NCBI GenBank assembly: GCA_035772405.1
Contig: JAYKKM010000122.1
Coordinates: 1,935,501-1,999,500, forward strand
Source: Chrysogorgia sp. JL179-B06
Taxonomy: Eukaryota; Cnidaria; Anthozoa; Scleralcyonacea; Chrysogorgiidae
Direction: 5' to 3'
DNA: 64,000 bases
In this document: positions 23,903 to 62,565 of the stretch, in pieces
How positions within the stretch are numbered: position 1 is the stretch's first letter
How the letters are laid out: each line of letters opens with the position of its first letter
Notes under the pieces: model-generated
Told to the model about the DNA's origin: nothing
The model's input: the letters and a program-made list of their open reading frames with translations, nothing else
Database searches by the model: none
Position numbers and translations under genes: made by a program

Positions 23903-24060
23903 GGCCTCCCTAGCTCAGTGGTCAGAGCACTGCACTGGCATCGCAGGGTCGTGGGTTCAATTCCAGCCGGAAGGCCTTGAAGTTAAATTTTTCGCAACTG
24001 GTCCCGGTTTGGACTTAAAATGTATATATTCCTACACTCGAAATTTTCCTTCACCGTATA
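23903..24060 (+). mobile_element. tRNA-derived SINE (family A), full head
   Basis: The head 23903-23976 folds like a tRNA: GGCCTCC with GGAAGGCC as acceptor stem, A box TAGCTCAGTGGT (23911-23922), anticodon-like loop CTGGCAT with GGC, and B box GGTTCAATTCC (23954-23964). The head is followed by an unrelated tail (CTGGTCCCGGTTTGGAC, CGAAATTTTCCTTCACC) shared with two other copies, which shows it is a Pol III SINE and not a tRNA gene. Confidence 0.85.
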
Positions 24061-27575: not shown

Positions 27576-28143
27576 CAATTATATATATTTCTCTTCTTAT
27601 ATCATTCTCTTCTTATATGTTCTGAACAAATTAGAATAAGAATTCATTAGGAAATCTACATATTCAAAATTTTGTAATAGATAAAATACGAGCAGCCGAT
27701 CTGTATGGGCATTTACATGGGCGAGCCATTGTTAATGCCCATACAGATCGGCAGCGAGTATTTTATCTTACTTGTGAAATTAATAGAATATATAATACAT
27801 ACTTTGTTTGGAAGTTGTAGAAACTGTACAAATAAATCATTTTAACTCCGAGAAAGCTCAATTTGTGCAAGTTAACTTTGATAAAACGCCCAGGTTAAGC
27901 CACTAGTGTATATTAACTTTGATAAAACATTGATCTTTTATTAATCAATGCTTTATCTGTATTTACAAATATTGATTAAATATTAATTTATTTTAAATTT
28001 TCTTCATGAATTGTTGATGAATTTTACAAGAGATATATAGGAGTGTGATTTGAAGAGATATAATTAGTGTTATTGCAAAATAATATAAAAGTATCTTGGC
28101 GACCAAAGTTACGGAGGTTTGTAAGTGTCACATGCAACAATTT
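27576..28143. other. AT-rich stretch with a ~33-bp-arm hairpin
   Basis: AGATAAAATACGAGCAGCCG..TATGGGCAT at 27679-27711 is matched in reverse complement at 27736-27769. TTCTCTTCTTATAT repeats three times at 27560-27620. No gene seen. Confidence 0.6.
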
Positions 28144-28790
28144 TAATTTAGCGACTTTTTTTATTTAGCGACTTTTTTTTCAATTAGCGACTTTTTTTCA
28201 ATTAGCGACTTTTTTTTCAATTAGCGACTTTTTTTTCAATTAGCGACTTTTTTTTCAATTTAGCGTTACCTGGATTTTCTCTTGGGAGGGAGGTGTGGCT
28301 TTGGTTGTGGCACTTTAGTTTACCCAAAAGGTCGAAATGTGGAGAGAGGACTATGACCAACCCCAAAACAACAAAGATCCTAACCATAACCCCTACCTAA
28401 CGAGTTTTCTTAGCCCCGGCTGTGTTCATGAAAAAACTCGTAAGGCGGGGAGTTAGGGTTAGGATCTTTGTTGTTTTGGTGTTGGTTACAATCCTCTCTC
28501 CACATTTCGACCTTTAGGATATACAGTGAACTCTCGCTAAGGGCCTTAGAGAGGTGTCCGCCTTAGAGAGAGTTTTATTATAGTAAATAATGTAGAAGCA
28601 GCCGAGATTATGTGTCCGCCTTAGAGGGGTGTCCGCATAGAGAGAGTTCACTGTACTAAAGAGCCACAACCAAAGCCACACCTCCCTCCCAAGAGAAATT
28701 TCAGATAAAGCTAAAAGTCGCTAATTGAAAAAAAAGTCGCTAATTGAAAAAAAAGTCGCTAATTGAGAAAAAAGTCGCTAAATAAAAAAA
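28144..28790. mobile_element. Foldback element with TTAGCGACTTTT arrays as arms
   Basis: The outer arms are tandem TTAGCGACTTTTTTTTCAA units (28144-28263), mirrored at 28707-28790. The inner arms pair over about 200 bp (GGGAGGGAGGTGTGGCTTTG with CAAAGCCACACCTCCCTCCC; AACAACAAAGATCCTAACC with its complement). There is no coding capacity. A second MITE (28524-28653) is nested inside the right half. Confidence 0.85.
28524..28653. mobile_element. Mariner-type MITE nested in the foldback
   Basis: TA at 28522-28523 and 28654-28655. The ends are CAGTGAACTCTC and GAGAGTTCACTG. The interior repeats GTGTCCGCCTTAGAG. These ends resemble widespread pogo/Tigger-type MITEs. Confidence 0.9.
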
Positions 28791-28799
28791 TAGGTCCGC

Positions 28800-33005: not shown

Positions 33006-36000
33006 TCACAAATTATTAAAAAACTTAATTTTAAAAAGACTGACATCAGTCGTGTCTTTTCTAATATTAATGTGGAGATTATTCCAATCTTTAGCTGCTT
33101 GGTAAACAACCCGTTGTTTACCCCAGTTCCTGTGTATTGGAGGCAGACGCAAGTCATCCTTTCTACGAGTGTTATGTGAATGAATGTTGGAATTATGAAT
33201 TAAGTTAAAGTTTATATCGACATAGTTATTTAGGCATTTAAAAATTGTGAGGCATCTGTGATAGTGACGTCTTTTTTCCAGACAAATCCAGTTGAGACGA
33301 TCAAGAGCTGCAGTTGCCGAACTCCAAACTGGGAGATCAAGGATCATCTTGGCAGCTTTATTTTGTGTCACCTGTAGACTATTCATCAAATCCGAATTGT
33401 TTTTATCGCCCCAAACGAGATCTCCATAATTAAATAGAGGCAGGATGAGGCTATTGTATAACGTAAGGCGAGACTTTAGTGGTAATAGGTGTTTAACCCG
33501 CCGAATAACACCAATACGTTGGTTTATCTTCTTGATCAGTGTTTCCACATGATCTGTCCAAGTCATATTTTCATGGAAAATTACTCCTAGGTACTTAAAA
33601 GATTCAGTTTTATCCAGGATATAGTTTCCAATTTTTAATGATATAGTCCCATACTGCTTCAATTTCTGAGTGCCACCGAACACAATGAATTTGCACTTGG
33701 ATGTATTTAATGTAAGTAGATTCTCATAATACCATTTTGAGATATTTAGCAAATCCACATTAAGCTTATGTTCCAAGTCATGTTGGTTATCAGCTGTACA
33801 GTAAATGACTGTGTCATCAGCATAGAGGGAAACCCCAGAAAATTCCAAACACGATGGCAGATCGTTGGTGTATAAAAGAAATAACAGTGGTCCCAAAATA
33901 CTGCCCTGCGGAACACCGACATCAACATATAAATCCGAAGAAAATTTGTTATCCACAGCTGTTATTTGCTTTCGGTTGGAAAGATAAGATTCAAACCACT
34001 CAACAGATTCCCCAGACAGACCAACCCCATGTAGCTTTTCCAGTAAAATCTGATGATCTACCGTGTCGAATGCCTTGGAGAGATCGAGAAAGACTGCTCC
34101 AGTTGTAAGGCCATTGTCCATATTCAGCAATACATTATCCGCAAAATGGGCCAATGGAAGATTGGTCGATAATCTTGGCCTAAAACCAAACTGTTTTGGG
34201 TTAAGGATCTTATTTTCATGTAGATAACTATATAGCTGAACGTGGACTCCTCTCTCAAGAATTTTACTGATAGTTGGCAAAACAGTAATAGGTCTATAAT
34301 TGTTTTTATCACTTCTTGAGCCAGATTTAAAAAGAGCTGTAACTTTGCCAAATTTCCATAAAGTTGGATAAATTTTCGACTGTAATGAACGATTGAAAAT
34401 TTTTGTGAGACTAGAACAAATAACGTGATTAGAGTCTTTAAGTAAGCGAGCGCTGATTCTATCGAGGCCGATGGCTTTATTTGATTTTAGCTGTTTCAGT
34501 TGGGTGGACACGAAGGATTCCTCAAAAGGTTTGAAAGTAAAGGGGTTGGTAATCACATTACTTTCATTGGCCACAGGAGCACAAGAAACTAAGTTACCTG
34601 ATGATGATTTGATTTTGTTAGCTAAGAATGTTCCGATTGAAGAAAAATGTTGATTGAGAATCTCAGCAATTGATTTCGCTTCGGTGTATATAGTGCCATT
34701 ATCTTCAATGCAGGAAAGGGAAGATCTTTTGGAGCGCGACGTGATCTCGTTAAGAGATTTCCATAAGTCACAGGGATTTCCTTTGTTCTTTTCGATAAGA
34801 TTTGCATAATAATTAACTTTGCAATCTTTAAACCGTTTATTTACGCATATTTTAAGTTTCTTATACGAAGCCCAATGGAAGGATGAATTGGTTTTTACAG
34901 CCTTCTTATGATGAAAATCGCGCTCTCTCGCGCGGTAAAAAAGTCCCGGTTCTAGCAAGAACATTCTTAAATATCTTAAATATCTTATTCTTTTCGATAA
35001 GATTTGCATAATAATTAACTTTGCAATCTTTAAACCGTTTATTTACGCATATTTTAAGTTTCTTATACGAAGCCCAATGGAAGGATGAATTGGTTTTTAC
35101 AGCCTTCTTATGATGAAAATCGCGCTCTCTCATAATTTTCATGAGCTCAGGTGTCAACCAGGGCAAATGAGTTCCTTTAAGCCGAGTTCTTTTTATTGGT
35201 GCATGTCTATCAGCAACATCGGAGAATAGATTATTCCAGGCCATTATGGCAGTCCGTTTCATTTTCAACCAGATTCCAATCCACTTGTTGTAATTCATTT
35301 ATGAAGGCCTCTTTAGAATAATTCTTATATGATCGGAATTCCATAGTCTTCCCAGGACCTTTGAATACACCAGATTTTAGAATACAAAAAATTAAAGAGT
35401 GGTCACTTAACGATAGATGAACAACGCCAAAATCTACAACACGATAACTATTGTTAACAAATAACAAGTCAATCAGCGTCGAAGACGTTTCCGTTATTCT
35501 TGTAGGAACATCTATAATTTGCTCGAGGTCGTACCGATTTCCAAATTGCATAAGTTTTTGCTTTAAGGTTCGGTTTTTATCCTTTTTGTCCGCGAGAAAA
35601 TTAGCATTAAAATCTCCCAGAAGGACAAGTTCTCGAAGTCCAGCGTCCGCTAAAGACGACATGGATATATTCAAATTATTGGTAAAAAGATCAATTTGCC
35701 AATCAGGAGCTCGATACACGGTCCAAACAATCAACTTCTTACATTTTGGTCGACAAACTTCAATAACACATGATTCAATAGTAGAGTTTTGTAAGTCGGT
35801 TCTTGCATGGTAAGGAATACCATCGCGTACAAACATCATAGTTCCCCCACCCTGTTTACCTTCTCGATCATGGCGAACGAATGAATATCCAGGCAGAGAG
35901 ATTTCACCATCTGTGATAGACGAGTTCAACCATGTTTCAGATACAGCTAGGATATCAAGAGGTTTATCTTTCAAAAGGATTCGGATTTGGTCCATTTTAC

Positions 36001-36403
36001 TAAAGATGCTTCGGACATTGAGGTGAGCAATCTTAAAACCACGAGTACGAAAGGCGTTCTTGAGTTGGTCTTGAGGTGAGACATCACAAGAATCTTGAGA
36101 AGGCCCAGGGTTTGAACTAACGTCTCCAGCCAAAAGTACAAGACAGGAAGCACACAGAGTTGTCTTCAACAATCGAAGACCAACCACAGCTTTCAAATAT
36201 GACGAAATAATCGGCTCACAATGATGAAGCTGACGAAGAGAATTTCTACTTGGAAAATCCTTGTGATTTAATCCATTAACCATAAGTAAGGAAGAAATAT
36301 CATTAGATCCAGATCTGTTTGATGTAACATTGGACAGAAGTAATATCAACAGAAGAATTTTACAAAGATATCGGGAGCTCATAAAAGAGCGTCCACCCGC
36401 CAT
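33006..36403 (-). pseudogene. LINE ORF2: signal-like N-term, 2A-like, EN and RT
   Basis: From the first ATG (36403): a hydrophobic stretch at residues 14-23 (CKILLLILLL) looks like a signal peptide. Residues 93-101 read GDVSSNPGP, a 2A-like ribosome-skipping motif. The AP endonuclease follows: AHLNVRSIFSK, SETWLNSS (catalytic Glu), YRAPDWQ, LLGDFNANF, SDHSLIF. The RT runs NNYRPITVLPTISKILER, EQ-like KQFGFRPRLST, motif A FLDLSKAFDTVDH, motif B GVPQGSILGPLLFLLYTNDL, motif C LYADDTVIY. The C-terminus has RLNWICLEKRRHYHR and DWNNLHINIRKD. The frame shifts near 35245 (two overlapping frames at 35231-35298). It is broken again by a duplicated 143-bp block (34786-34928 and 34988-35130) separated by 59 bp; the 202-bp offset is not a multiple of three. 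Confidence 0.88.
34786..35130. repeat. 143-bp direct duplication inside LINE ORF2
   Basis: TTCTTTTCGATAAGATTTGC at 34786 and 34988 begins two identical 143-bp copies, ending CGCGCTCTCT at 34928 and 35130. The 59-bp linker (34929-34987) is not part of the normal LINE frame. Confidence 0.95.
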
Positions 36404-36769
36404 GACTATGTAACATAGGATGGTCCAGAGATACTACAATGCGAAAGATGGGGCCTCGTGGAAGAGACGTACTATTAAGGATGCAGAGATCAGTGATCTC
36501 CAGTACCCTAAATATCGCACGAACATTTAAAGTCATTACATGAAAGGAAGTCAAATTGGATGAAAGATTTAATATAGCCAGATTATATAAGAAGACAAAC
36601 ATCACTATGAGATAGATAATCCTTTGATAACTTTTACGATATTAGTTGGGTTGTTTCTGTAAGTACCGGAGCACAGTATACGCATCAAAACAATCATTTC
36701 TTAATTTGTTAATACAGAGCCCAATAAATTAAATATCCAATATAATTAAAGGTAAAATTCATGTTTCGC

Positions 36770-38670
36770 AAGCGACTTTGTACCAATTGAAGGCTTCGCA
36801 CAAAATTAATTACATTAAAGTCCACAGGTCCACACTTTCATACAGTACCTCACTCACTGAAGTCCACAGGTCCACAGTCCACACTTTCATACAGTACCTC
36901 ACTTATTGAAGTCCACAGGTCCACACTTTCATACAGTACCTCACTTATTGAAGTCCACAGGTCCACAGTCCACACTTTCATACAGTACCTCACTTATTGA
37001 AGTCCACAGTCCACACTGTCATACAGTACCTCACTTATTGAAGTCCACAGGTCCACAGTCCACACTTTCATACAGTACCTCACTTATTGAAGTCCACAGG
37101 TCCACAGTCCACACTTTCATACAGTACCTCACTTATTGAAGTCCACAGTCCACACTTTCATACAGTACCTCACTCATTGAAGTCCACAGTCCACACTGTC
37201 ATACAGTACCTCACTTATTGAAGTCCACAGTCCACACTTTCATACAGTACCTCACTTATTGAAGTCCACAGGTCCACAGCCCACACTTTCATACAGTACC
37301 TCACTTATTGAAGTCCACAGGTCCACACTTTCATACAGTACCTCACTCATTGAAGTCCACAGGTCCACAGTCCACACTTTCATACAGTACCTCACTTATT
37401 GAAGTCCACAGGTCCACAGTCCACACTTTCATACAGTACCTCACTTATTGAAGTCCACAGGTCCACACTATCATACAGTACCTCACTTATTGAAGTCCAC
37501 AGGTCCACAGTCCACACTTTCATACAGTACCTCACTTATTGAAGTCCACAGGTCCATAGTCCACATTTTCATACAGTACCTCACTCATTGAAGTCCACAG
37601 GTCCACAGTCCACACTGTCATACAGTACCTCACTTATTGAAGTCCACAGGTCCACACTTTCATACAGTACCTCACTTATTGAAGTCCACAGGTCCACACT
37701 TTCATACAGTACCTCACTTATTGAAGTCCACAGGTCCACAGTCCACACTTTCATACAGTACCTCACTTATTGAAGTCCACAGGTCCACACTGTCATACAG
37801 TACATCACTTATTGAAGTCCACAGGTCCACACGTTCATACAGTACCTCACTTATTGAAGTCCACAGGTCCACAGTCCACACTTTCATACAGTACCTCACT
37901 TATTGAAGTCCACAGGTCCACACTTTCATACAGTACCTCACTTATTGAAGTCCACAGGTCCACAGTCCACACTGTCATACAGTACCTCACTTATTGATAG
38001 TCCACACTGTCATACAGTACCTCACTTATTGAAGTCCACAGTCCACAGTCCACACTTTCATACAGAACCTCACTTATTGAAGTCCACAGGTCCACAGTCC
38101 ACACTTTCATACAGTACCTCACTTATTGAAGTCCACAGGTCCACAGCCCACACTTTCATACAGTACCTCACTTATTGAAGTCCACAGGTCCACACTTTCA
38201 TACAGTACCTCACTTATTGAAGTCCACAGGTCCATAGTCCACACTGTCATACAGTACCTCACTTATTGAAGTCCACAGGTCCACAGTCCACACTGTCATA
38301 CAGTACCTCACTTATTGAAGTCCACAGGTCCATAGTCCACACTTTCATACAGTACCTCACTCATTGAAGTCCACAGTCCACACTATCATACAGTACCTCA
38401 CTTATTGAAGTCCACAGGTCCACAGTCCACACTTTCATACAGTACCTCACTTATTGAAGTCCACAGGTCCACAGTCCACACTTTCATACAGTACCTCACT
38501 TATTGAAGTCCACAGGTCCACAGTCCACACTTTCATACAGTACCTCACTTATTGAAGTCCACAGGTCCACAGTCCACACTGTCATACAGTACCTCACTTA
38601 TTGAAGTCCACAGTTCACACTTTCATACAGTACCTCACTCATTGAAGTCCACAGGTCCACACTTAAAAGT
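36770..38670. repeat. Satellite array of 42/49-bp units (left arm)
   Basis: More than forty units of CACTTTCATACAGTACCTCA-CTTATTGAAGTCCACAGGTC, with or without an extra CACAGTC, giving 42- and 49-bp spacings. The MKSTGPHFHTV-type frames on it are artefacts of the repeat. Confidence 0.95.
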
Positions 38671-38679
38671 GCCTCACTT

Positions 38680-39492
38680 AAAGAACAGTGCCTCGCTTAA
38701 AGAAGCCTTCGGCCAAATTGGCAAATGGACATCACCAGGAGGCAACTCCAAGAAGTTTAAAAGCTCTAATTCTGATTTGACTATTACCTGGTATTATAGT
38801 AAACAAAAAAACACTGCTGTTCCAAGGGAAAGACGGTAACTACCTGAAAGAAATTCTGATTAATATCTGTGGAAAGTCGGGTTCATCAGTAAGAACTGAA
38901 CTTGATATGAGCGGAGAGGCGACTCAAGCGGTTGTTCAATATGTTGTTCAAGCGGTTTCCCGATCTGACTCATTAAATTTGGCTGTCGGTAGTCACAAGA
39001 CATTTCCTGAGGATGTAACAACGATTAACCTGGACGAAACTGCATATATGTTTGAGTGTGTGTCTAAATCTGGATTGGAAATACCTTGCGAAATGTCGAA
39101 TAACTATATTCATGATGTTCGGGCGATTATTCAAGATGTCGTTCAACCGGTTTCTCAATCTGTTTAGTTCACCAAATGTGTCTGTCGGTATGCTGTCGTT
39201 TGTTCAATGTCCGTGCAGGTCTCTTGCAGTAGATATTGAGGGAGTTAAGTTGGATGTTGTTATAACGCAAAAGCAAATGGAATCTATAGTTGCTAATATT
39301 CCGAAACCTACGAGCATCAAGATAATCGATAAAGAAAACTCTCTTGAACGTGAATTGGTGCAGGAGAGAGAAAGATGTAAACAACTGGAAAAAGAAATTT
39401 CCATAATGACAAACGAAAAGAATAAAGATATTAATGATTATAACCAACGCATTAGTTCCCTAGAGGATAGAATGGTCAATGCAGAAAAGTAA
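38680..39492 (+). pseudogene. ORF1-like protein of the internal LINE (broken)
   Basis: Frames 38680-38839, 38907-39167 and 39052-39492 chain together. Visible blocks: ASLKEAFGQIGKWTSPGGNS, SNSDLTITWYYSKQK, MSGEATQAVVQYVVQAVSRS, ECVSKSGLEIPCEMS, and a C-terminal coiled coil (ENSLERELVQERERCKQLEK). Position ahead of an endonuclease/RT frame and the coiled coil fit a LINE ORF1 product. Frameshifts near 38815 and 39160 break it. Function is inferred from context only. Confidence 0.5.
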
Positions 39493-39699
39493 AGAGACTC
39501 CCTAAGGCTAGCAATTGCATTAATCATCCAAGATAATACTATTAATTTAAGTCAAAGTACACCAGTTGTAGAAATCCGTAAGAATTATGAATACCAACGA
39601 GTAGAAAAGCCAGGGGGAACGAAAAATCGGATATGGAGCCAAAGACACAAGAGATGCCACTGAAATTACCATGCCTTTCGAAGGGAAAGAATAAAAGCA

Positions 39700-42600
39700 G
39701 TGGTCCTCAAGATAGTCATCCTTTTGAAGAACAAATGTGTGACTATATCGAGAAACACAATCGATAATAAGAAGGACGAGTTAGCTGTGTTAATTGATCA
39801 ACATAATTCTGACCTTGTAATGGTTACAGAAACTTGGCTAACGGAAAATATTCCAAGTGAGACAGTGCAAATTCCTGGTTTAAGATAGCGGTAGAGGGGT
39901 GGTGTGGAAGTATATGTACGCGATCATATTCCAGTTAAAGTTCGTAATGATCTGATACAAACGACTTTCGAATGTTTCGAATGTTTATGGATAACCATAT
40001 ACGACCAAAATGGCTTCCTAGATTGATTTCCAAAATTGCTGTGGCATGCATTTATTTCTCTCCATCATTGTCATCAAGTGACCTTCAAAGTTTTTATGAT
40101 TACTTTTGTTATTGTTGCGATATTCTAACATCTGAAAGTCAAAGTACCGCAATCATCGTAGCTGGAGATTTTAATCCTGTAAGTAATGGCTTTCAAACTA
40201 ATCTTATTTCCAAACACTGCCAGCTTAAGCAACTAGTCAAAGTACCAACCAGAGGAACAGCTATTCTCGATTTAATACTAACAAATGTGGTCACCTGGTA
40301 TGACGATCCTATTGTTTTGGCTCCGATAGCTACATCTGACCATTGTGTTATTAAATGGCAATCTAAAGTACAGGTTGCTAGCAAGGAAAAGAATATAATA
40401 AGAAAGATCAAAGTAAGGCCACTCAGACAATACAGTTTACAAGCTTTTAATGAATACTTAAAACGCTATGATTGGTCACCTGTTTGCAATGCTACATGTA
40501 CGAATAGTAAAGCTGATTTGTTTCTAGAATTGACCAACAAGATGATTGATGCTTTTTTTCGCAGAGAAAATCGTAAAACTACATGGGAACGATAAGCCTT
40601 TTATAACTGGTAGAATCAAGCGTCTTTTAGCCAAACGAGATAAGGCATACAAGCAGGGTAGAATTGGATGTTTTAAAGCTCTACGTCGATTAATTTCATC
40701 TGAGATTTGTAAGGAGAAGAAATCGTTTTATGACGACAAAATTCTACCAACCCGTTGTTCTAACCCAAAAGCGTGGTGGAAGAACATCAATAAACTTGTG
40801 GGGAAAAAGAATAACATGCAGGGTGAAATTATTAGATCCAGAAACCAACACCCCTATGAATGATAAACAAACCGCTAATCATATAAACTCATTCTTTGCG
40901 AGTCTTACAAATAATTTTCCACAGATTCGAAGTGAATGGATGTTATCTGGAACATCTGATCCACTTCCTGTGATTGAATGTGCGAGCGTTGAAAATAAGC
41001 TTAAACATCTTAATGAGAGCAAATCACCTGGTCCGTATGATCCAGCTATTAAATTAATTAAAATGTTCGCAAAATCATTTGCCATACCGTTGACTAACAT
41101 ATTTAATGAATCGTTCGGATCTAGGACATTTCCGGATATATGGAAGAAGTACAGTTTATGTGCGGTTCCTAAAGTTATGCCTTGTTCCGGTGTGGATGAG
41201 TTAAGACCTATCGCACTAACAAGTGTGTTATCTAAGGTACAAGAATCCTATGCTGTCGAGTGGATCCATGAAGATGTACGAGATCAGTTATTAAATCCTT
41301 TTCAATTCGGTGGCCTTCCTGGTGGATCAGCAGTTCTGGCTCTTGTCAACCTCTTGCACAAATGGTATAAGGCCATGGAGGTCCGGGGTAAGATTGTGCG
41401 AATAATATTCCTAGATTTCCGTAAGGCGTTTGACTTAATTGAACATAATGCTCTGTTGGAGAACTTCTCGAAAATTGGTCTCCGCCCGGCTCTGATTGCG
41501 TGGTTGGGATCTTACTTATGTAATCGATCGCAAACTACCAAATATGGAAACGAATGTTCTGATGCTGAGAACGTAAGTGGAGGAGTTCCCCAGGGAAGCA
41601 AAATTGGCCATATAGCCTTTATCGTTCATATTAATCAACTACCGTTAACAATAATACGTCGATATAGGACTACCCCTGATATATCTGAAGAGGATACTAC
41701 AATGTTTATGGACGATACTACCTTATCAGAAGTAATCGATGTTTCCAATCAATTTCAGGCCGTCCTATTGGTAACTCTCAAACCAATGTAGAGAGTGTTT
41801 TGCACGAGAACAACATATGGAACTTAACGCCAAAAAATGTAAGGAAATGCAGATTGATTTTCATACGAATAAAACAGATATCCATCCTATCTACATCGCA
41901 GAGCAAGCCATGGATAAGGTCAGTTCATATAAGCTCTTGGCGCTATGGGTTGACGACGGCGGGACGTAGCCAGAACCTTCAAAGGGGGGGGGGGGGGGGG
42001 GCCCTGTGGAGAATGGAAGAAGTCGTGGCTATATGTTCGACACAAAGCCGCGATTGTGTCTGGGGGGTGGGGTACGGTACATGGTCTCACAGGAAAATTT
42101 TGAAAAGCCCAGAAGTGCTTTTGAAGCAATTTCTAACATGATTTTTTGCGAAATTAGGCCACCAGACGATGGCTAGAAATTTCATTTTTAGCTGTTACAT
42201 CGTGCTAATATAATTAGTTATATTTTATCCAGCCTTTCATTATTTATTCTGACAGTAAAACAAAAAACACAATTGTTTGCTTATTTTAAAAAAGGCGTAG
42301 GTTTATTAAAAAGAAAACTGAACACGGAAACATATTTAAATTCTGCGACTAATGTAAACAGTTTGACTTTTTCCGTAGAACAAGCACTTTGTTTTGTGAT
42401 GAATTTATGAAGAATAAGCTATCTGTAAACAAATTAATCATGTACTATAAAATATTTAGTTGAATGTTTTGTTTTAGTTCAAGCGGCTCCCACGGCTCCC
42501 CCCCCCTGGCTACGTCCCTGTGATGACCTAAAATGGAACACCAACACTGCCTATATAACAAAAAAGGCAGCTAAGCGCCTATACTTTTTAAAGGTCCTGA

Positions 42601-42715
42601 AAAGCTATGGTGCTTCTACGAATGATTTGAAAACATTTTTTATTGCAGTAATAAGATCAACCCTCGAATATGCATGCCACGTTTGGAATTGGAACTTTGT
42701 AACGAGATATCACTT
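39700..42715 (+). pseudogene. Internal LINE ORF2, endonuclease and RT (broken)
   Basis: Endonuclease: LAVLIDQHNSDLVMVTETWL (catalytic Glu) at about 39778, VAGDFNPVSNGF at 40160, ATSDHCVIKW at 40331. RT: SPGPYDPAIKLIKMF, ELRPIALTSVLSKVQES, FQFGGLPGGSAVLALVNLLH, motif A FLDFRKAFDLIEH, motif B GGVPQGSKIGHIAFIVHINQ, motif C FMDDTTLSEV at about 41704. It is fragmented by several frameshifts (near 39885, 40590, 40850, 41790) and by a hAT-like insertion (41959-42520). The frame ends at LEYACHVWNW near 42696; the remaining C-terminus is on the other strand. Confidence 0.8.
41959..42520. mobile_element. hAT-like non-autonomous insertion in LINE
   Basis: Ends GGGACGTAGCCAG and CTGGCTACGTCCC, with near-matching 8-bp flanks TGACGACG (41951-41958) and TGATGACC (42521-42528). 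The LINE blocks YKLLALWVDD and DLKWNTNTAYITKK lie on either side. It contains an 18-G run. Confidence 0.75.
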
Positions 42716-42724
42716 ACATCCATG

Positions 42725-42966
42725 ACAGTTTAGTAGCTTTGTTCATTTGTTCTGGTATCTCTTTCTCTCATGTGTCCGATTTTTTTTGGAAGAAGACTTG
42801 ATTTGGACATATTTTTAATTAGGTCAACACACAAATCATCCCGGCGTTCTCTAAGGGACTTTAGGCCGGCCTTTTGTAATAATTTCTCGTAATCATACTC
42901 AGCGTAGATTATCCTAAGGGCACGCTTTTGAATTCTCTGAATATCCCCACTTTGTTCTTTCGTCAA
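42725..42966 (-). pseudogene. LINE C-terminal piece, inverted
   Basis: The minus strand reads DIQRIQKRALRIIYAEYDYE and LRERRDDLCVDLIKNMSKSS. This is the segment that should follow LEYACHVWNW of the plus-strand copy, judged by the same order in the 25.5-26.4 kb fragment (IERIQKRALKIIYNEHDY). An inversion breakpoint therefore lies near 42700-42725. Confidence 0.75.
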
Positions 42967-43149
42967 GTTTGTAACAATAAGACTCGGACAACGGTTGAAT
43001 ATCGTTGTTTATTTGATTTGTCTCTGATCATTCGTAGCTATAAGCTCTATAACTACAAGCGTCTATCTTATTGTGTGTAATCTCCGTTAACCACTCAAGG
43101 GGCATCAAGTTATTATAATTATATGTATAAAACTGAAAGATTTAAACAT

Positions 43150-43790
43150 AGTCCAATACTGATATTTAGTCCACAGGTCCACACTTCCATTGAACATACA
43201 GTTCTGTATGATTTCTAACTGTGGACATTGATGACTGACTTACTGTGAGGAGTGAGGTTATAAAAGTGTGGACTAAGTGTGGACTTCAATGAGTGAATTA
43301 AGGTATGGAAGTGTGAACTTCATCAACAAGTGATGTATGAAAGTGTGGACCTGTGGACTTCAATGAGTGAGGTACTGTATGAAAGTGTGGACTGTGGACC
43401 TGTGGACTTCAATAAGTGAGGTACTGTATGAAAGTGTGGACTGTGGACCTCAATAAGTGAGGTATTGTATGACAGTGTGGACTGTGGACCTGTGGACTTC
43501 AATAAGTGAGGTACTGTATGACAGTGTGGACTGTGGACCTGTGGACTTCAATGAGTGAGGTACTGTATGAAAGTGTGGACTGTGGACCTGTGGACTTCAA
43601 TAAGTGAGGTACTGTATGACAGTGTGGACTGTGGGCCTGTGGACTTCAATAAGTGAGGTACTGTATGACAGTGTGGACCTGTGGACTTCAATAAGTGAGG
43701 TACTGTATGACAGTGTGGACTGTGGACCTGTGGACTTCAGTGAGTGAGGTACTGTATGAAAGTGTGGACCTGTGGACTTTAATGTAATTA
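43150..43790. repeat. Satellite array, right arm (inverted)
   Basis: Same units in reverse orientation (GGACTTCAATAAGTGAGGTA, CTGTATGAAAGTGTGGAC), about thirteen copies, running into the right terminal repeat. Confidence 0.95.
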
Positions 43791-43957
43791 ATTTTGTGCG
43801 AAGCCTTCAATTGGTACAAAGTCGCTTGCGAAACATGAATTTTACCTTTAATTATATTGGATATTTAATTTATTGGGCTCTGTATTAACAAATTAAGAAA
43901 TGATTGTTTTGATGACGTATACTGTGCTCCGGTACTTACAGAAACAACCATTAGTTG

Positions 43958-57800: not shown

Positions 57801-60800
57801 CAAATGTATTAATTCTCTGCTGATTTAGTTAAATCTGCTGTTAGCTTACCAACAATAATGAAAAATAGCTTTTACACAACTATCGTATCTTATGCCATTC
57901 TCGAGTTATTATACATTTCATGTAACTTGAGCTGTGACGTCACAAGATGGACACAGCATTACATCAAAACTCAAAATCAGGCATATCTTCCGATTGGTTT
58001 GACTAAACTGGCTCAAACCAAATACCAAACCAAATAAAATAAAATAATACCAAACCAAATAAACCAAAATAAACCAAACCATGCATACTTACTGAGTCAA
58101 CAAGACTCTGCATTGAGATTGTTGTTATTAGGTTCCCATGGTAACAGATTCGTTTCCAGGCCAATAAATTGTATAGAAACAAAGTTTCTACTTTTTGTCG
58201 TTGCAGTTACTATTTTATTGTTTTAAACAGTATTGTTACATTGGAAATCATGAGAAAAGGATGTCAACTTCCTAAAACTAAATAAGTTGCTGTAAATGTG
58301 GTTGAAAACAAAGAATTGTTATAAAGGAAGAGAGTAATCTGGAAACTAATCCGTTACCATAGCAACCACATTAGAACCATGACAATGTTTAGTTTTCTTG
58401 ACTGAGTAAGTCAGCAAGGTTTGAATCTATTTAGTCGAACCAGTCTGAAGATATGCCTGATTTTCAGTGTTGTTTTTATAATGCTGTGTCCATATTGTGA
58501 CGTCACAGATCAAATTATATAAAGCGTAATAATTAAACATAAAAAGCCATTTTTCATTATTTTAAGTGTTCTTTCAAATACAATAAAAAACAAAACTGGA
58601 GCGAATTTTCATTTCATAGACACTTTAAAGGCACCACATCAATTATAATGATATAGAGCCTCCACGACAGTGATTACATAGTGGAGATAAATGCCCCAGT
58701 GTAAACGAATAATACTAATATTTCAGTTAATATTACAGATTTGGATATTTCAGTTTTGGTCACACCCCAATCCCATGCTCATTGACAAGGCTGACCATTA
58801 ATGTTCCATGCGGTACCCACATGTTCGCATTGCGGACCTATTTTTCCTTGAATGTTTGGGTTATTGGGTGTCAACTGCACTTACTGTAGATCACACATTC
58901 GTTAAACAATTGTAACGGCATACCGCGGTATTTTTCGAATATCGGTATCGAAATTCCCATACCGCCCAACTCTACTGGGAACAGTGTGCTAATTACCCTG
59001 AGGATCATTCTAAAATAGAAGTGAAACACTACTCACTCGTGAGAGATATTATCAACACTCGAAGATAAAGCGGAACACGAACGAGTTTCGAAATTAACAT
59101 TTGAGTCATTCCTTCAAACGTTGTGGTAAAAATCTTAGGCATATGTTAACTATATTTAGTATCCCACTCGCAACTGTTGAAAGAGAGAATATACTTAAAT
59201 ATCGTGCAGGATAACATCCATTTACCTTGTGGTTGTCCATCAGTATATGAACAGTCTGGGTGTCTCCCATGATCGCTGTCTCACTCGAAAGCTTGGGTTC
59301 CACAGCTTCGAGCCAATCGAACAACGATTGCAAAGCATCTTTGAACATTCCCGTGAAAAGCAAAGCTTCTTCCAGTTTTTGTTGTCTATATATAACCGTG
59401 AGATAAAATATCGTGAGCACTTCACTTGCATTGCGGGTTCGAGCTCTGACTGCGGCTCAGAAATGGTCGGAGTTTATACAAGAACTTGAGTAGTATTGGT
59501 GTTGTATATATACACTGATGTAGTGAGGGAGTTTGGAGTAGACAGACGATATATAGACGATCGTCAAGCTCAGGCAGGGATCAAACCTGTAACATTCTGA
59601 TTGCCGGTGAGACGCTCTAACCATTGATCCACCGAGACTCAGATGGAGAGCGAAGGTTACAATGATGTACTGGTTCGATTGATACTGCAATACTGCTCAG
59701 AAATAACCTAACCAAAAACGCGTTCCGAACGCGTTCCGAACGCGTTCCAGAACGCGTTCCGGATGCGTTCCAGAACGCGTTCCGAACGCGTTCCAGAACG
59801 CGTTCCGAACGAATTCGGAACGCGTTCCGGTTTTCAGGCTATACATATCGTGATCAGTTCGGCCATATCCGGAAATTGTCGTCACTTTCCGATTCGTAGC
59901 GTCATCTTGTTTCATATCGTCGCTCCGCCATATTTACTGAATAATGAATATAAGAGATATTTTACGATGAGAAAGCTTTCATTATATGCAAGAAAAAGAG
60001 TAATTTCTTTGAGATCAGCTGGAGTAAAGATTCCAAAAATAAAAGATACTCTAATCGAGGAAGGAATTAAAATCTCAAGATCAGCAATCTGTCTTTTTCT
60101 TTTGCGATATCGAATGAGTGGTCAATTGAACGATGCTCCTCGCAGTGGTCGAAGGCCAAAAGTGACAGAAGAACATATCAAATTTATAGACGAATATGAC
60201 TCGCCGGTTATATATAGATATTATAATATAGATCGCCGGTTATCCAGGCGAAACAAATTATGGACAAAACGTCTTGGTTCACGAGCTCTTGCGCATTGCT
60301 GACCGCCACAGCTTGTGATACGAGTAGTTTAGTTCGCTACAACCTTAAGTCGTTTCGCTACACTATCGTATACGCGAGTCTAATATGAATTTATATCTAC
60401 GGATTATGTTTTGCTTCGTCCGAACATAAGCATGTAAACATGTCAATCAAAAACGACCTTCGAACATGAAATACCCGGCCGACGATATCACGATAGTATA
60501 AAGTTAAAAAGTAGAGTGCGCGTAGACAGGGTTTTGGATATATAGCAAGTCAGTATTTCGTTACTAAAAATCATGGCAGTTGAGTGAAAACAATAAGTGA
60601 TGATTCATAAAGATGTTGCCGCGTGCCCATTATAAACTTCACCCCGCGCTTGCCAATAGTCTATTCACTCTCAATTTCTATGAGATGATAGATGACTCTG
60701 CCTTCGCCATCGTCATTTATCACATCATGATAGAAATCTCGAGCTCATAATCTTTAAATATAAATTCGCCATCGACAATCATAAAGGAACGCAGGCTCTG

Positions 60801-61624
60801 GGTACGAGATTGATTACATATTTATCAGAGCATATTCAGAATAATTTCCAACTGACATGAAACCAAAACGAAACAAACGTATAGATGTAGGAAACGACTT
60901 ACCAATAAACCATTAAAACGAAATCGTTTGTTGGTAAGTCGACATATACAGTTGTTACGCTGGAAGCGAAACGACTTTGTGTTACATACTGCAGCAAAAC
61001 GACTTCTGGTTGTAGCGAAACGACTTGTAGCGAAACGACATGTCATTGCACACATTACAATGTGCATGCATGCGAAGCATGGCAGTCACGAATTTTTATA
61101 GCGGTCGTTTTAATTCACAGATGAATAAAATAAAGATTTGATGAGTGTTTTTTTAATAAACACAAGCGTTCATATAAAAAGGTACCAACCATCCGTCCAC
61201 AACCCTGATGTTTTTAAAAAATATATGGCGCCGCGTGATAATCAAACACGGAGTAAAATTTATATTAAGCCTGTGTCTGAACTACTGACTCAGTTATTAC
61301 TTATGCGCAACTCTCATTCACTCTCATCATTGATTGATCCAAGCCACAAGTCTCAAGTTCATACATTCTTCGTATAAATGTGATTTGTTACATTGGTTAA
61401 TCACTCGGAGTTTTCCGAACTCGGTAATAGCTTCCGACAAAATTTCCATCTCAATCGAACGCGTTCAGGAACGCGTTCCGGAACGGCTCCGGAACGCGTT
61501 CCGGTACGCGTTCGGAACGCATTCTGGAACGCGTTCGGAACGCGTTCTGGAACGCGAAGGGAACGCGTTCTGGACGAGAACGCAGCGTTAGGTTACTTCT
61601 GAGCAGTACTGTATAGTATATATA

Positions 61625-61674
<50 letters not shown>

Positions 61675-62565
61675 CAATGCTTGGATGCAAGTCTAAGTAA
61701 GTCCCGGACAGAAATCGAACCTGTAATCTTGTTGTAAATGTCGTGGTAGCTCAATTTCTGAGAATTTGAGGTTGAAGATCGTCTATGTATCGTCAGTTAA
61801 TATTGCGATTTGCGCTAATTCTGGGTTAAAATTTAACAGGCTGTCGAGATTCTTGAGAATGAAATCTATTGGTTCCCATTGAGTGTTTAATAACCTTAAC
61901 TACATTGATTTAGACTTCTATATGTTTAAATCAATAAACCTTTGTATATATAAGGCTTATTAACCGAGTGCGAGGTCTGTATGCATGGCAAGGTATTTTC
62001 CGGAGGTTTTTGAGAGGTATTGTATTTGCTTAGAAATAAATCAGGCATGTTGACTCATCGTGCCTTGGTGGGAACGATAGAGATACAGTATATACAGTAT
62101 TAACAGAAAAATAATAAATCTAAAACGCGAACACGTTTTTATTATTTGATCATTTAAGATAAGAAATATGTTGTTTTTGGAGTTCCTGAATGAAAGGAGA
62201 ACTACCAAATTCTAGCAAATACAGTTTTAAAGGTGTTGATTTTTTGTTAAATTATTAGCTTCTACAGTTAGTTATTATTGTACATGCAAAAATTCGAGAG
62301 TTGTAACTCGAGAACCGAGTGCGCGGTGAGAATTTTGCCGAAATAAGCATACACTGTATATCATAAGACGTAACAATTAATGTATATATTTTAGTTACCT
62401 TTCAACAGACAGAGCGCAAAGACCATCCCATCGTTCTTTAAGTTCTGCGACTTTCTCTTCTACCACAACAGCATCGTCTACCTCGCCGCGGTCCATCAGA
62501 ACTTTGCCAGATTTAATCGTGACGTCCATTTTGGCTTGCTGTGGTCCCAGTGTACTTTGGAATGC
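48212..62565 (-). CDS. MACF1/DST-like: Spectraplakin (MACF1/dystonin/shot), 3' part
   Basis: Giant cytoskeletal linker between actin and microtubules; this window holds its C-terminal ~820 residues. Inferred exons in coding order: 62565-62399, 59385-59226, 56062-55736, 55266-54931, 54784-54419, 53471-53354, 52589-52492, 50279-50157, 49921-49804, 48855-48212. All have GT/AG borders, and the phases join without error. Domain order: spectrin repeats ([15 protein letters not shown] to LLEEHK), basic linker, last helix before the EF-hands ([27 protein letters not shown]), EF-hand pair, GAS2 domain ([39 protein letters not shown]), and a Ser/Thr/Arg-rich tail starting GRTNFDIRR. This order is diagnostic of the family. 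The actin-binding and plakin parts lie beyond 64000. Introns carry a TTAA foldback, a hAT-like element, a Tc1-like element and SINEs. Confidence 0.93.
49146..49782. mobile_element. Foldback element with TTAA duplication
   Basis: TTAA at 49142-49145 and 49783-49786. The ends GGTGGCTCCCTACTGTTTCT and its complement start arms of about 270 bp that pair almost perfectly (for example CATCTGTTGCTATGACAACA, GGTGACCCCCGATTTTTT) around a 90-bp AT-rich loop. 637 bp, no coding capacity, in the intron between the last two spectraplakin exons. Confidence 0.93.
49804..49921 (-). CDS. MACF1/DST-like: Spectraplakin exon: GAS2 domain, second half
   Basis: [20 protein letters not shown], then [28 protein letters not shown] is the most conserved GAS2 block, which binds the microtubule lattice. 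It ends in phase 1 at GTGAG. Confidence 0.95.
50157..50279 (-). CDS. MACF1/DST-like: Spectraplakin exon: GAS2 domain, first half
   Basis: [20 protein letters not shown], then [21 protein letters not shown]. The CxC pair and GEGKYR are GAS2 hallmarks. Phase 0 at both ends, CTCTTTGCAG acceptor and GTAAGT donor. Confidence 0.93.
50407..50660. repeat. ~95-110-bp tandem repeat, about 2.5 units
   Basis: CTTAAACATG, ACACTGGGTTCAGTTGAA and CAAGACGTTCCCAAAC recur in order within the spectraplakin intron next to the possible alternative exon. Confidence 0.75.
50693..50857 (-). CDS. Possible alternative first exon before GAS2
   Basis: An ATG at 50857 opens [20 protein letters not shown], then an acidic repeat [20 protein letters not shown] and [12 protein letters not shown] after codon 55 (50692) would splice in phase 0 to the GAS2 exon at 50279. 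It could start a short GAS2-only isoform. The donor (ACG|GTGCCA) is weak, and an independent small gene or chance frame are alternatives. Confidence 0.3.
51230..52491. other. Spectraplakin intron with telomere-like inverted repeat
   Basis: 51826-51886 has CCTAACC-type repeats that meet their reverse complement head to head (CCCTAACCGTTAGGG). TCAATCAA repeats lie at 51233-51262. No coding blocks seen. Confidence 0.5.
52492..52589 (-). CDS. MACF1/DST-like: Spectraplakin exon: EF-hand 2 (degenerate)
   Basis: [20 protein letters not shown], then [12 protein letters not shown]. The loop is shortened and lacks the Asp ligands (ERRG-L instead of D-x-D-x-D-G), keeping the hydrophobic frame and the exiting helix. 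Confidence 0.85.
53354..53471 (-). CDS. MACF1/DST-like: Spectraplakin exon: EF-hand 1
   Basis: [20 protein letters not shown], then [19 protein letters not shown]. The loop has Asp at positions 3 and 5 and Gly at 6, but Gly at 1 and Gln at 12 where family members have Asp and Glu. Ca2+ binding is probably weakened. Confidence 0.9.
53520..54310. other. Spectraplakin intron with SINE scraps
   Basis: 54190-54310 holds two tandem partial SINE heads (GCTAAATGGTTAGAGCAT and GCTAAATGATTGGAGCAT, each followed by CACTGGTCA). A TACA/CACA-rich microsatellite lies at 54108-54165. No coding blocks. Confidence 0.5.
54419..54784 (-). CDS. MACF1/DST-like: Spectraplakin exon: basic linker and last helix
   Basis: 122 codons. 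[20 protein letters not shown], then a basic Pro/Arg/Ser linker with KTRIPAR (a TxIP-type motif, about 54649-54638), then [20 protein letters not shown] and [11 protein letters not shown]. The last block precedes the EF-hands in all spectraplakins. Confidence 0.92.
54931..55266 (-). CDS. MACF1/DST-like: Spectraplakin exon: one spectrin repeat
   Basis: 112 codons, phase 0 at both ends, [20 protein letters not shown], then [34 protein letters not shown], and LQALLEEHK at the end. CHP-SGTHTV matches the conserved CHPD-I-TI/HTV region of family members. Confidence 0.93.
55736..56062 (-). CDS. MACF1/DST-like: Spectraplakin exon: one spectrin repeat
   Basis: 109 codons, phase 0 at both ends, [20 protein letters not shown] to NKQIEEMK. 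Contains the [20 protein letters not shown] helix typical of spectrin repeats. Confidence 0.92.
56225..56341 (-). mobile_element. tRNA-derived SINE (family C), left part
   Basis: Antisense head: GCGGGATTTGAACTACTGTA (B box), CCGCTGCTCTACCAGTTGAG and CTACCGCGCC (A box). In sense this reads GCGCGGTAGCTCAACTGGTAGAGC. It is cut at CTGGGAAC by the hAT-like element; the rest resumes at 58975. Confidence 0.75.
56832..58821. mobile_element. Possible nested element with TGTGGGTACCGC ends
   Basis: TGTGGGTACCGC at 56832 and its complement GCGGTACCCACA at 58810-58821 bracket about 2 kb inside the hAT-like element. The left end is itself a 12-bp-arm palindrome. A GTAG(GTAG)n run lies at 56893-56919. No duplication was identified. 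Confidence 0.4.
57853..58563. repeat. Diverged foldback, ~200-300-bp arms
   Basis: AATGAAAAATAGC, TGTGACGTCACAAGATGGAC and CAGGCATATCTTCCGATTGG at 57855-58000 match, in reverse complement, CCAGTCTGAAGATATGCCTG, GTCCATATTGTGACGTCACA and GCCATTTTTCATT at 58450-58560. It contains TGACGTCA (CRE-like) words in both arms. Confidence 0.75.
59226..59385 (-). CDS. MACF1/DST-like: Spectraplakin exon: spectrin repeat piece
   Basis: Encodes [20 protein letters not shown] to MDNHK, matching the LDDALLLSGRFQDALQALMDWL and LIDNHK positions of vertebrate spectraplakins. Phase 2 in, phase 0 out. Confidence 0.9.
59500..59692 (-). mobile_element. tRNA-derived SINE (family B)
   Basis: Antisense head CAGGGATCAAACCTGTAACA (B box), GAGACGCTCTAACCATTGAT and CACCGAGACTCAGATGGAGA, plus the body TGTAGTGAGGGAGTTTGGAG. 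The Tc1-like element inserts at its end. Confidence 0.75.
59967..60302 (+). pseudogene. Tc1-like transposase N-terminus (truncated)
   Basis: The ATG at 59967 gives [20 protein letters not shown], an HTH region ([20 protein letters not shown]) and the GRPR-like [14 protein letters not shown], typical of the paired-like DNA-binding domain of Tc1 transposases. After about residue 80 the frame leaves the family ([15 protein letters not shown]), so the DDE catalytic domain is absent. Transposition would need an external transposase. Confidence 0.85.
60303..61130. other. Tc1-like element interior, GTAGCGAAACGACTT repeats
   Basis: GTAGCGAAACGACTT-type words recur at 60330-60360 (inverted) and 60965-61045. 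A short hairpin CGACTTACCAA/TTGGTAAGTCG lies at 60895-60945. No catalytic-domain blocks found. Confidence 0.5.
61617..61673. repeat. (TA)n tract
   Basis: About 55 bp of TA dinucleotides just outside the right end of the Tc1-like element. Confidence 0.9.
61680..62398. other. Spectraplakin intron, no feature seen
   Basis: AT-rich. No coding blocks, arrays or RNA genes recognised. Confidence 0.4.
62399..62565 (-). CDS. MACF1/DST-like: Spectraplakin exon: spectrin repeat piece
   Basis: Starts [20 protein letters not shown] after a TTTAG acceptor and ends [13 protein letters not shown] at a GTAAC donor (phase 2). The next exon begins [12 protein letters not shown], which completes the helix heptads. 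Confidence 0.85.

Follow-up and report, generated by a model that had tools for sequence, protein, structure and literature searches.

A probable Mutator/IS256-type foldback family with satellite-filled arms and a broken LINE interior in the coral Chrysogorgia sp. JL179-B06

Foldback transposons carry tandem repeats in long inverted arms, and the closest known kinds for the architecture of the 7.3-kb element described here, which lies in a 64,000-nucleotide stretch (the window) of contig JAYKKM010000122.1 from the coral Chrysogorgia sp. JL179-B06, are Tetris, Muta1, and Tm1. The comparisons with these systems follow selected passages of the cited reports. Tetris of Drosophila virilis is a foldback with an outer domain and a tandem-repeat array in each arm around a variable middle, makes 8-10 bp target site duplications (TSDs), and was placed in Mutator by its authors (PMC4079207). 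In contrast to the coral element, its repeat unit is 220 bp long, and no transposase was found for it (PMC4079207), whereas the coral family has one between the same ends. The Tetris repeats also have 37 bp in common with the outer domain (PMC4079207), whereas no similarity was seen between the coral satellite unit and the outer terminal inverted repeat (TIR), for which 1493 of 2000 shuffles scored equally high. Muta1, a Mutator-like element (MULE) of Aedes aegypti, resembles the coral element in its 8-9 bp TSDs, 145-bp TIR, subterminal tandem repeats, and non-autonomous copies with foreign interiors, termed type-2 foldback; it differs in that 12-bp repeats lie inside short TIRs, activity is reported in yeast, and the transposase has 504 aa, with no mention of an OTU domain in the passages that describe it (PMC5225508). 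Tm1 of root-knot nematodes, assigned to a Mutator/Foldback family, likewise has variable arrays in its TIRs and varied interiors, but with repeats of about 14 bp and mostly 9-bp duplications (PMC3169594).

For an OTU-bearing transposase, the nearest listed match is MuDR-6_HM, a cnidarian MULE group tabulated with 'Ovarian Tumour Gene' and compared here by description alone; unlike for the coral family, its table gives no indication of a TSD and lists the TIR as none (PMC6446971). The same source gives 8-11 bp as the target duplication of MULEs (PMC6446971), a range that includes the 8 bp of the coral family. Galileo of Drosophila also has long, internally repetitive TIRs, but belongs to the P superfamily with a THAP transposase (PMC3688188, PMC3573991); its repeats contain extra transposase binding sites (PMC4079207). 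Among the papers listed in searches of the open-licence literature, none was seen to describe the coral family. The coral element is a copy of a cut-and-paste DNA transposon with satellite-filled long inverted ends and a dead retrotransposon inside, a kind already known; new here is a family of this kind with an unusually complete pedigree, readable from sister copies in one genome. It is very probably a non-autonomous foldback of Mutator/IS256 type, descended from full-length relatives of the type represented by the copy C35.

Limits of the element and its copies in the genome

The original prediction, made from the letters of the window, had described an 8-bp duplication, inverted ends, and oppositely oriented satellite on the two sides, and each of these is present at the positions it gave (Table 1). 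Read inward from the two ends, the first mismatch comes after ~237 bp, with a single 1-bp gap in that length, and the alignment spans the ~170-bp TIR and the initial satellite units. In the window, the outermost 21 bp are found at the two ends and nowhere else at up to 3 mismatches, compared with 0 occurrences in 100 shuffles. When the joined flanks were searched in the genome, 40 of the 41 matches listed crossed the joint at 91-97% identity (40 of 119 candidates scored), and all six of the paralogous empty sites fetched contain a single ATTAGTTG and are gap-free for 40 bp to its left and right. Thus, the element sits in a dispersed repeat, and comparison with these unbroken targets, which cover this one insertion, proves its limits at 36649 and 43949 and its duplication exactly as first described. 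Recent movement, also proposed from the near-identity of the ends, is not proven: the terminal repeats are nearly identical between different copies as well, so that they may have been homogenised, and the interior of the 7.3-kb copy contains an inversion of its own.

Table 1. Coordinates of features of the 7.3-kb element (positions in the window) and of the extra insert in the C249 copy (positions in L027)
Feature	Position	Strand	Basis or remark
Left 8-bp TSD, ATTAGTTG	36641..36648	none	flank comparison and empty sites
Left TIR, starting GGTTGTTTCTGTAAGTACCGG, up to first satellite unit	36649..36817	+	end alignment
Left satellite arm, 41/42/49-bp units, about 40	36818..38664	+
Satellite piece AAGTCCACAGGTCCACACTT to the left of the LINE, candidate target duplication of the LINE with its partner at about 43168-43186	38645..38664
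LINE, 5′-truncated, broken, with endonuclease and RVT_1 regions, without 3′ tail	38697..43168	+
Open stretch of LINE with RVT_1, E 3.2e-16	40694..41791	+	domain search
Nested insertion in LINE, about 0.55 kb	41969..42523		limits approximate
Segment inverted relative to 6 other element copies still holding all or part of it	42731..43115	-	private to 7.3-kb copy
Decayed inner satellite, like sequence downstream of C35 transposase	43169..43343	-
Right satellite arm, inverted, about 9 units	43344..43779	-
Right TIR	43780..43949	-	end alignment
Right 8-bp TSD, ATTAGTTG	43950..43957	none	flank comparison and empty sites
Parts of extra insert in C249 copy	L027 2742-3881, 4614-6153, 8836-9366

A search of the 781-Mb host genome with the 170-bp end gave at least 24 matches at at least 15 loci (the counts are lower bounds), and DNA was read at all 15. 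Both ends are present at nine loci, spaced 1.34 to 17.1 kb, and all nine paired copies have the long inverted arms with tandem satellite that characterize foldbacks; among the six single-ended loci, the satellite lies on the TIR side in five, and the sixth, C265, retains only 99 bp of the end. The nine paired copies represent seven independent insertions, since C522, C266, and C156 have common flanks: they are the same insertion into the same target, and their flanks are 97.8-99.9% alike over 1.2-1.5 kb, with the exception of 108 bp beside the element, where C522 and C156 are 86% alike. The seven insertions have TSDs matching at 8/8 positions in three cases and 7/8 in three, with an eroded end in one. 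The interiors of the 15 loci comprise a long interspersed nuclear element (LINE) at eight, transposase genes at two, and arms alone at two, the other three being single-ended.

The two loci with arms alone, C522 and C266, contain nothing but the outer portions of the two arms, which abut directly with no loop between them, and thus one insertion is known in two forms, 9.5 kb and a collapsed 1.34-kb palindrome. Because C156 has its LINE interior in common with other loci, the palindrome is regarded as the derived state. The left array of the 7.3-kb element lies at 36820-38661 (49-bp unit, 39 copies) and the right array, in opposite orientation, at 43344-43777 (9 copies), with unit lengths mostly of 49, 41, and 42 bp. 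The satellite is decayed at the inner edge of the right arm and over a short distance to the left of the LINE. The order of some marker units is the same in the long (C156) and short (C522/C266) forms, and blocks of units are repeated inside the arms of C319 and C469, suggesting unequal exchange.

Two other copies carry further material. The C249 copy has an extra insert of ~7.9 kb with a DDE_3 (Tc1/mariner-like) frame, a DEAD helicase fragment, and weak matches to a replication protein and a helicase, and the C35 copy has, at about L034 3531-6909, a nested element in its right satellite arm, apparently with inverted ends GCTAAACCACGAAACAGCG.

Gene-bearing relatives and the transposase class

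The original prediction had proposed to look for a transposase frame between the same ends; such a frame was found next to these ends at 2 of the 15 loci, one of which has both. These copies, C35 and C75, lack the LINE of the other copies and contain genes, among them one for a DDE transposase that has OTU- and CXC-like regions; close copies of this transposase (at least 89%) were found only there, the next by score being 44% identical. The predicted fold of a coral homologue resembles the IS256-family transposase ISCth4 in a structure search. On this basis, a foldback family of Mutator/IS256 type is the likeliest assignment, ahead of hAT, P, or Merlin. For two host genes, the closest relatives with a name come from stony corals.

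Several observations weigh against this assignment or against C35 and C75 as a working source. The C35 coding region is spread across three overlapping frames and that of C75 has stops, so that no intact autonomous copy was seen, and no right arm of C75 occurs within the 18 kb read. For the C35 pieces themselves, the matches to OTU and CXC lie below the Pfam cut-offs. Among 45 homologues, the curated Mutator models MULE and Transposase_mut match one and two, respectively, all weakly, and another transposase model, DDE_Tnp_ISL3, matches three, also weakly. Comparison of C35 with C75 (dS 0.034, dN 0.023, dN/dS, the ratio of nonsynonymous to synonymous divergence, about 0.7) rests on few changes and decides nothing.

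Two other accounts of the structure as a whole were considered. The hAT, P, and Merlin classes also make duplications of about 8 bp, and it was from the 8-bp duplication alone, present at the element and single in the empty sites, that the original prediction named them. This assignment is not supported and now appears quite improbable: the transposase linked to the same ends fits the IS256-family fold by prediction, and no hAT, P (THAP), or Merlin (IS1016-type) domain is among 25 of the 33 families that match the 45 homologues. Two structure searches returned no hAT, P, or Merlin transposase in the best 50 rows each, a result that does not exclude these classes. The alternative that the arms arose by local amplification around unrelated inverted repeats, and that the structure is not one mobile unit, would accommodate the variation of array length between arms and between copies; the clean empty sites and the same order of parts at many loci refute it in the main, leaving it next to no probability.

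Related transposases are frequent in the genome, with dozens of diverged OTU-type sequences on many contigs, mostly 30-45% identical, several open frames above 1000 aa, and 9-bp minisatellites near some (C56, C405, C222). Two further families with related OTU transposases were examined for satellite arms: C56 and C405 have at least 8.4 kb in common at 99%, and the ends could therefore not be placed; C222 has one-sided tandem arrays, with no inverted match >32 bp in the 5.5 kb fetched.

The LINE interior and other features of the window

The original prediction regarded the LINE as a passenger of a mobile foldback with subterminal satellite, and both parts of this description are supported, except that the LINE is not private to the 7.3-kb copy: it is common to 8 of the 15 loci and 96.8-99.7% identical among them. 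It has the features of a LINE, namely endonuclease and reverse transcriptase regions, 5′ truncation, and a natural 3′ end with tail. RVT_1 was detected in the 7.3-kb copy itself, and the endonuclease is evidenced by a weak match in C32 and by similarity to a neighbouring LINE. The endonuclease frame has the same stop in seven of the eight element copies, and C156 has other sequence there. The nested insertion (Table 1) is at least partly present in C475a, C249, C469, C156, and C32, and is lacking from the element copy C475b and from all four free LINE copies fetched. The dN/dS ratio of the LINE copies, 0.65, rests on too few changes to be decisive.

The occurrence of the LINE in the same place at all eight loci might suggest a TIR-bounded retroelement of which the reverse transcriptase is an integral, functional component. 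The same subfamily, however, is found at at least five loci without a terminal-repeat match (101 of 18248 candidates scored), and none of the four copies fetched has satellite or TIR. Each of the four extends farther in the 3′ direction than most element copies do, and two reach an AAACC(ATT)n tail; together with the stop common to the element copies and the absence of the LINE from C35 and C75, this makes such a retroelement extremely unlikely. How the LINE entered is a separate matter. The (ATT)n tail is kept in C156 and C475b, with satellite sequence directly after it, and the sequence to the right of the LINE resembles that just downstream of the transposase in C35, which most likely means that the copy had already lost its core when the LINE inserted into one of its satellite units, the LINE moving with the copy from then on. 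The two sides of the LINE agree over 20 bp in C156, 19 bp in the 7.3-kb copy, and 12 bp in C475b, an agreement compatible with a target duplication, although the piece recurs in the satellite. Capture by gap repair or template switching, as in Pack-MULEs, in place of the LINE's own retrotransposition, would be consistent with the short agreement in C475b, with a 32-bp filler at the left junction of the 7.3-kb copy, and with the candidate duplication AAGTCCACAGGTCCACACTT belonging to the repeated satellite unit (8 occurrences in the window) and hence not being unique. Against capture stand the natural 3′ end with its tail, the truncated 5′ end, and the 20-bp agreement in C156, and we regard it as unlikely. 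The LINE appears to be a conventional retrotransposon that inserted within one satellite unit of a core-deleted copy and was already broken when the composite spread.

Elsewhere in the window, a nearly open LINE with endonuclease and reverse transcriptase in two frames lies at 33009-36433 (- strand), its own upstream side adjoining the insertion. A small foldback-like element at 28141-28793 has arms of a 19-bp minisatellite, TTAGCGACTTTTTTTTCAA, in opposite orientations, and within it lies another inverted repeat, 76 nt long. At 59542-61797, a near-palindromic 11/12-bp unit, GAACGCGTTCCG, forms two arrays separated by 1.7 kb and enclosed by an inverted repeat of 31 nt (87%; at 59542 and 61767); the whole may be a third minisatellite-armed element. 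An Rfam scan gave nothing within the 7.3-kb element and a single tRNA-like match at 23911-23967, and two scans of viral contigs with TIR and satellite 21/32-mers gave no match.

Proposed pedigree and its meaning

Sequence relationships among the copies suggest the following history, in which the insertion limits, the family, the common interior, the linkage of the transposase, the identity and tail of the LINE, the deletion junction, and the collapsed form are established by sequence. The full-length element would have consisted of a terminal repeat, a satellite arm, a gene core of about 11.7 kb, a second satellite arm, and a terminal repeat. An internal deletion, whose junction is read by comparison with C35, brought the left satellite into contact with sequence immediately downstream of the transposase, and a 5′-truncated LINE would then have retrotransposed into the innermost left satellite unit; this order of events is the one we infer. 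The composite, its LINE already dead, would have spread to at least eight loci, presumably mobilised in trans: a DDE transposase from full-length relatives of C35 type would have excised the element and inserted it at ATTAGTTG with a duplication of 8 bp. Unequal exchange would have lengthened and shortened the arms, and one insertion appears to have collapsed in place to a bare palindrome.

A further, speculative idea, which we hold to be doubtful, is that the satellite arms serve as a tunable landing platform, in which the CXC region would bind the 41/49-bp units, array length would set the frequency of movement, and the OTU domain would shield the transposase from degradation. If so, the arms would be selected to expand, and the transposon would be both a supplier of dispersed satellite DNA and a carrier of LINE sequence.

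The authors of Tetris could not find the transposase of their comparable foldback (PMC4079207). In this coral, a single genome contains non-autonomous satellite-armed copies together with gene-bearing relatives that share their ends, and the link between arms and satellite, as well as the passage from long foldback to palindrome at one site, can therefore be traced. The family is also a case in which a DNA transposon has increased the copy number of an already broken LINE, and its sister copies reveal the likely transposase source of a satellite-armed foldback.
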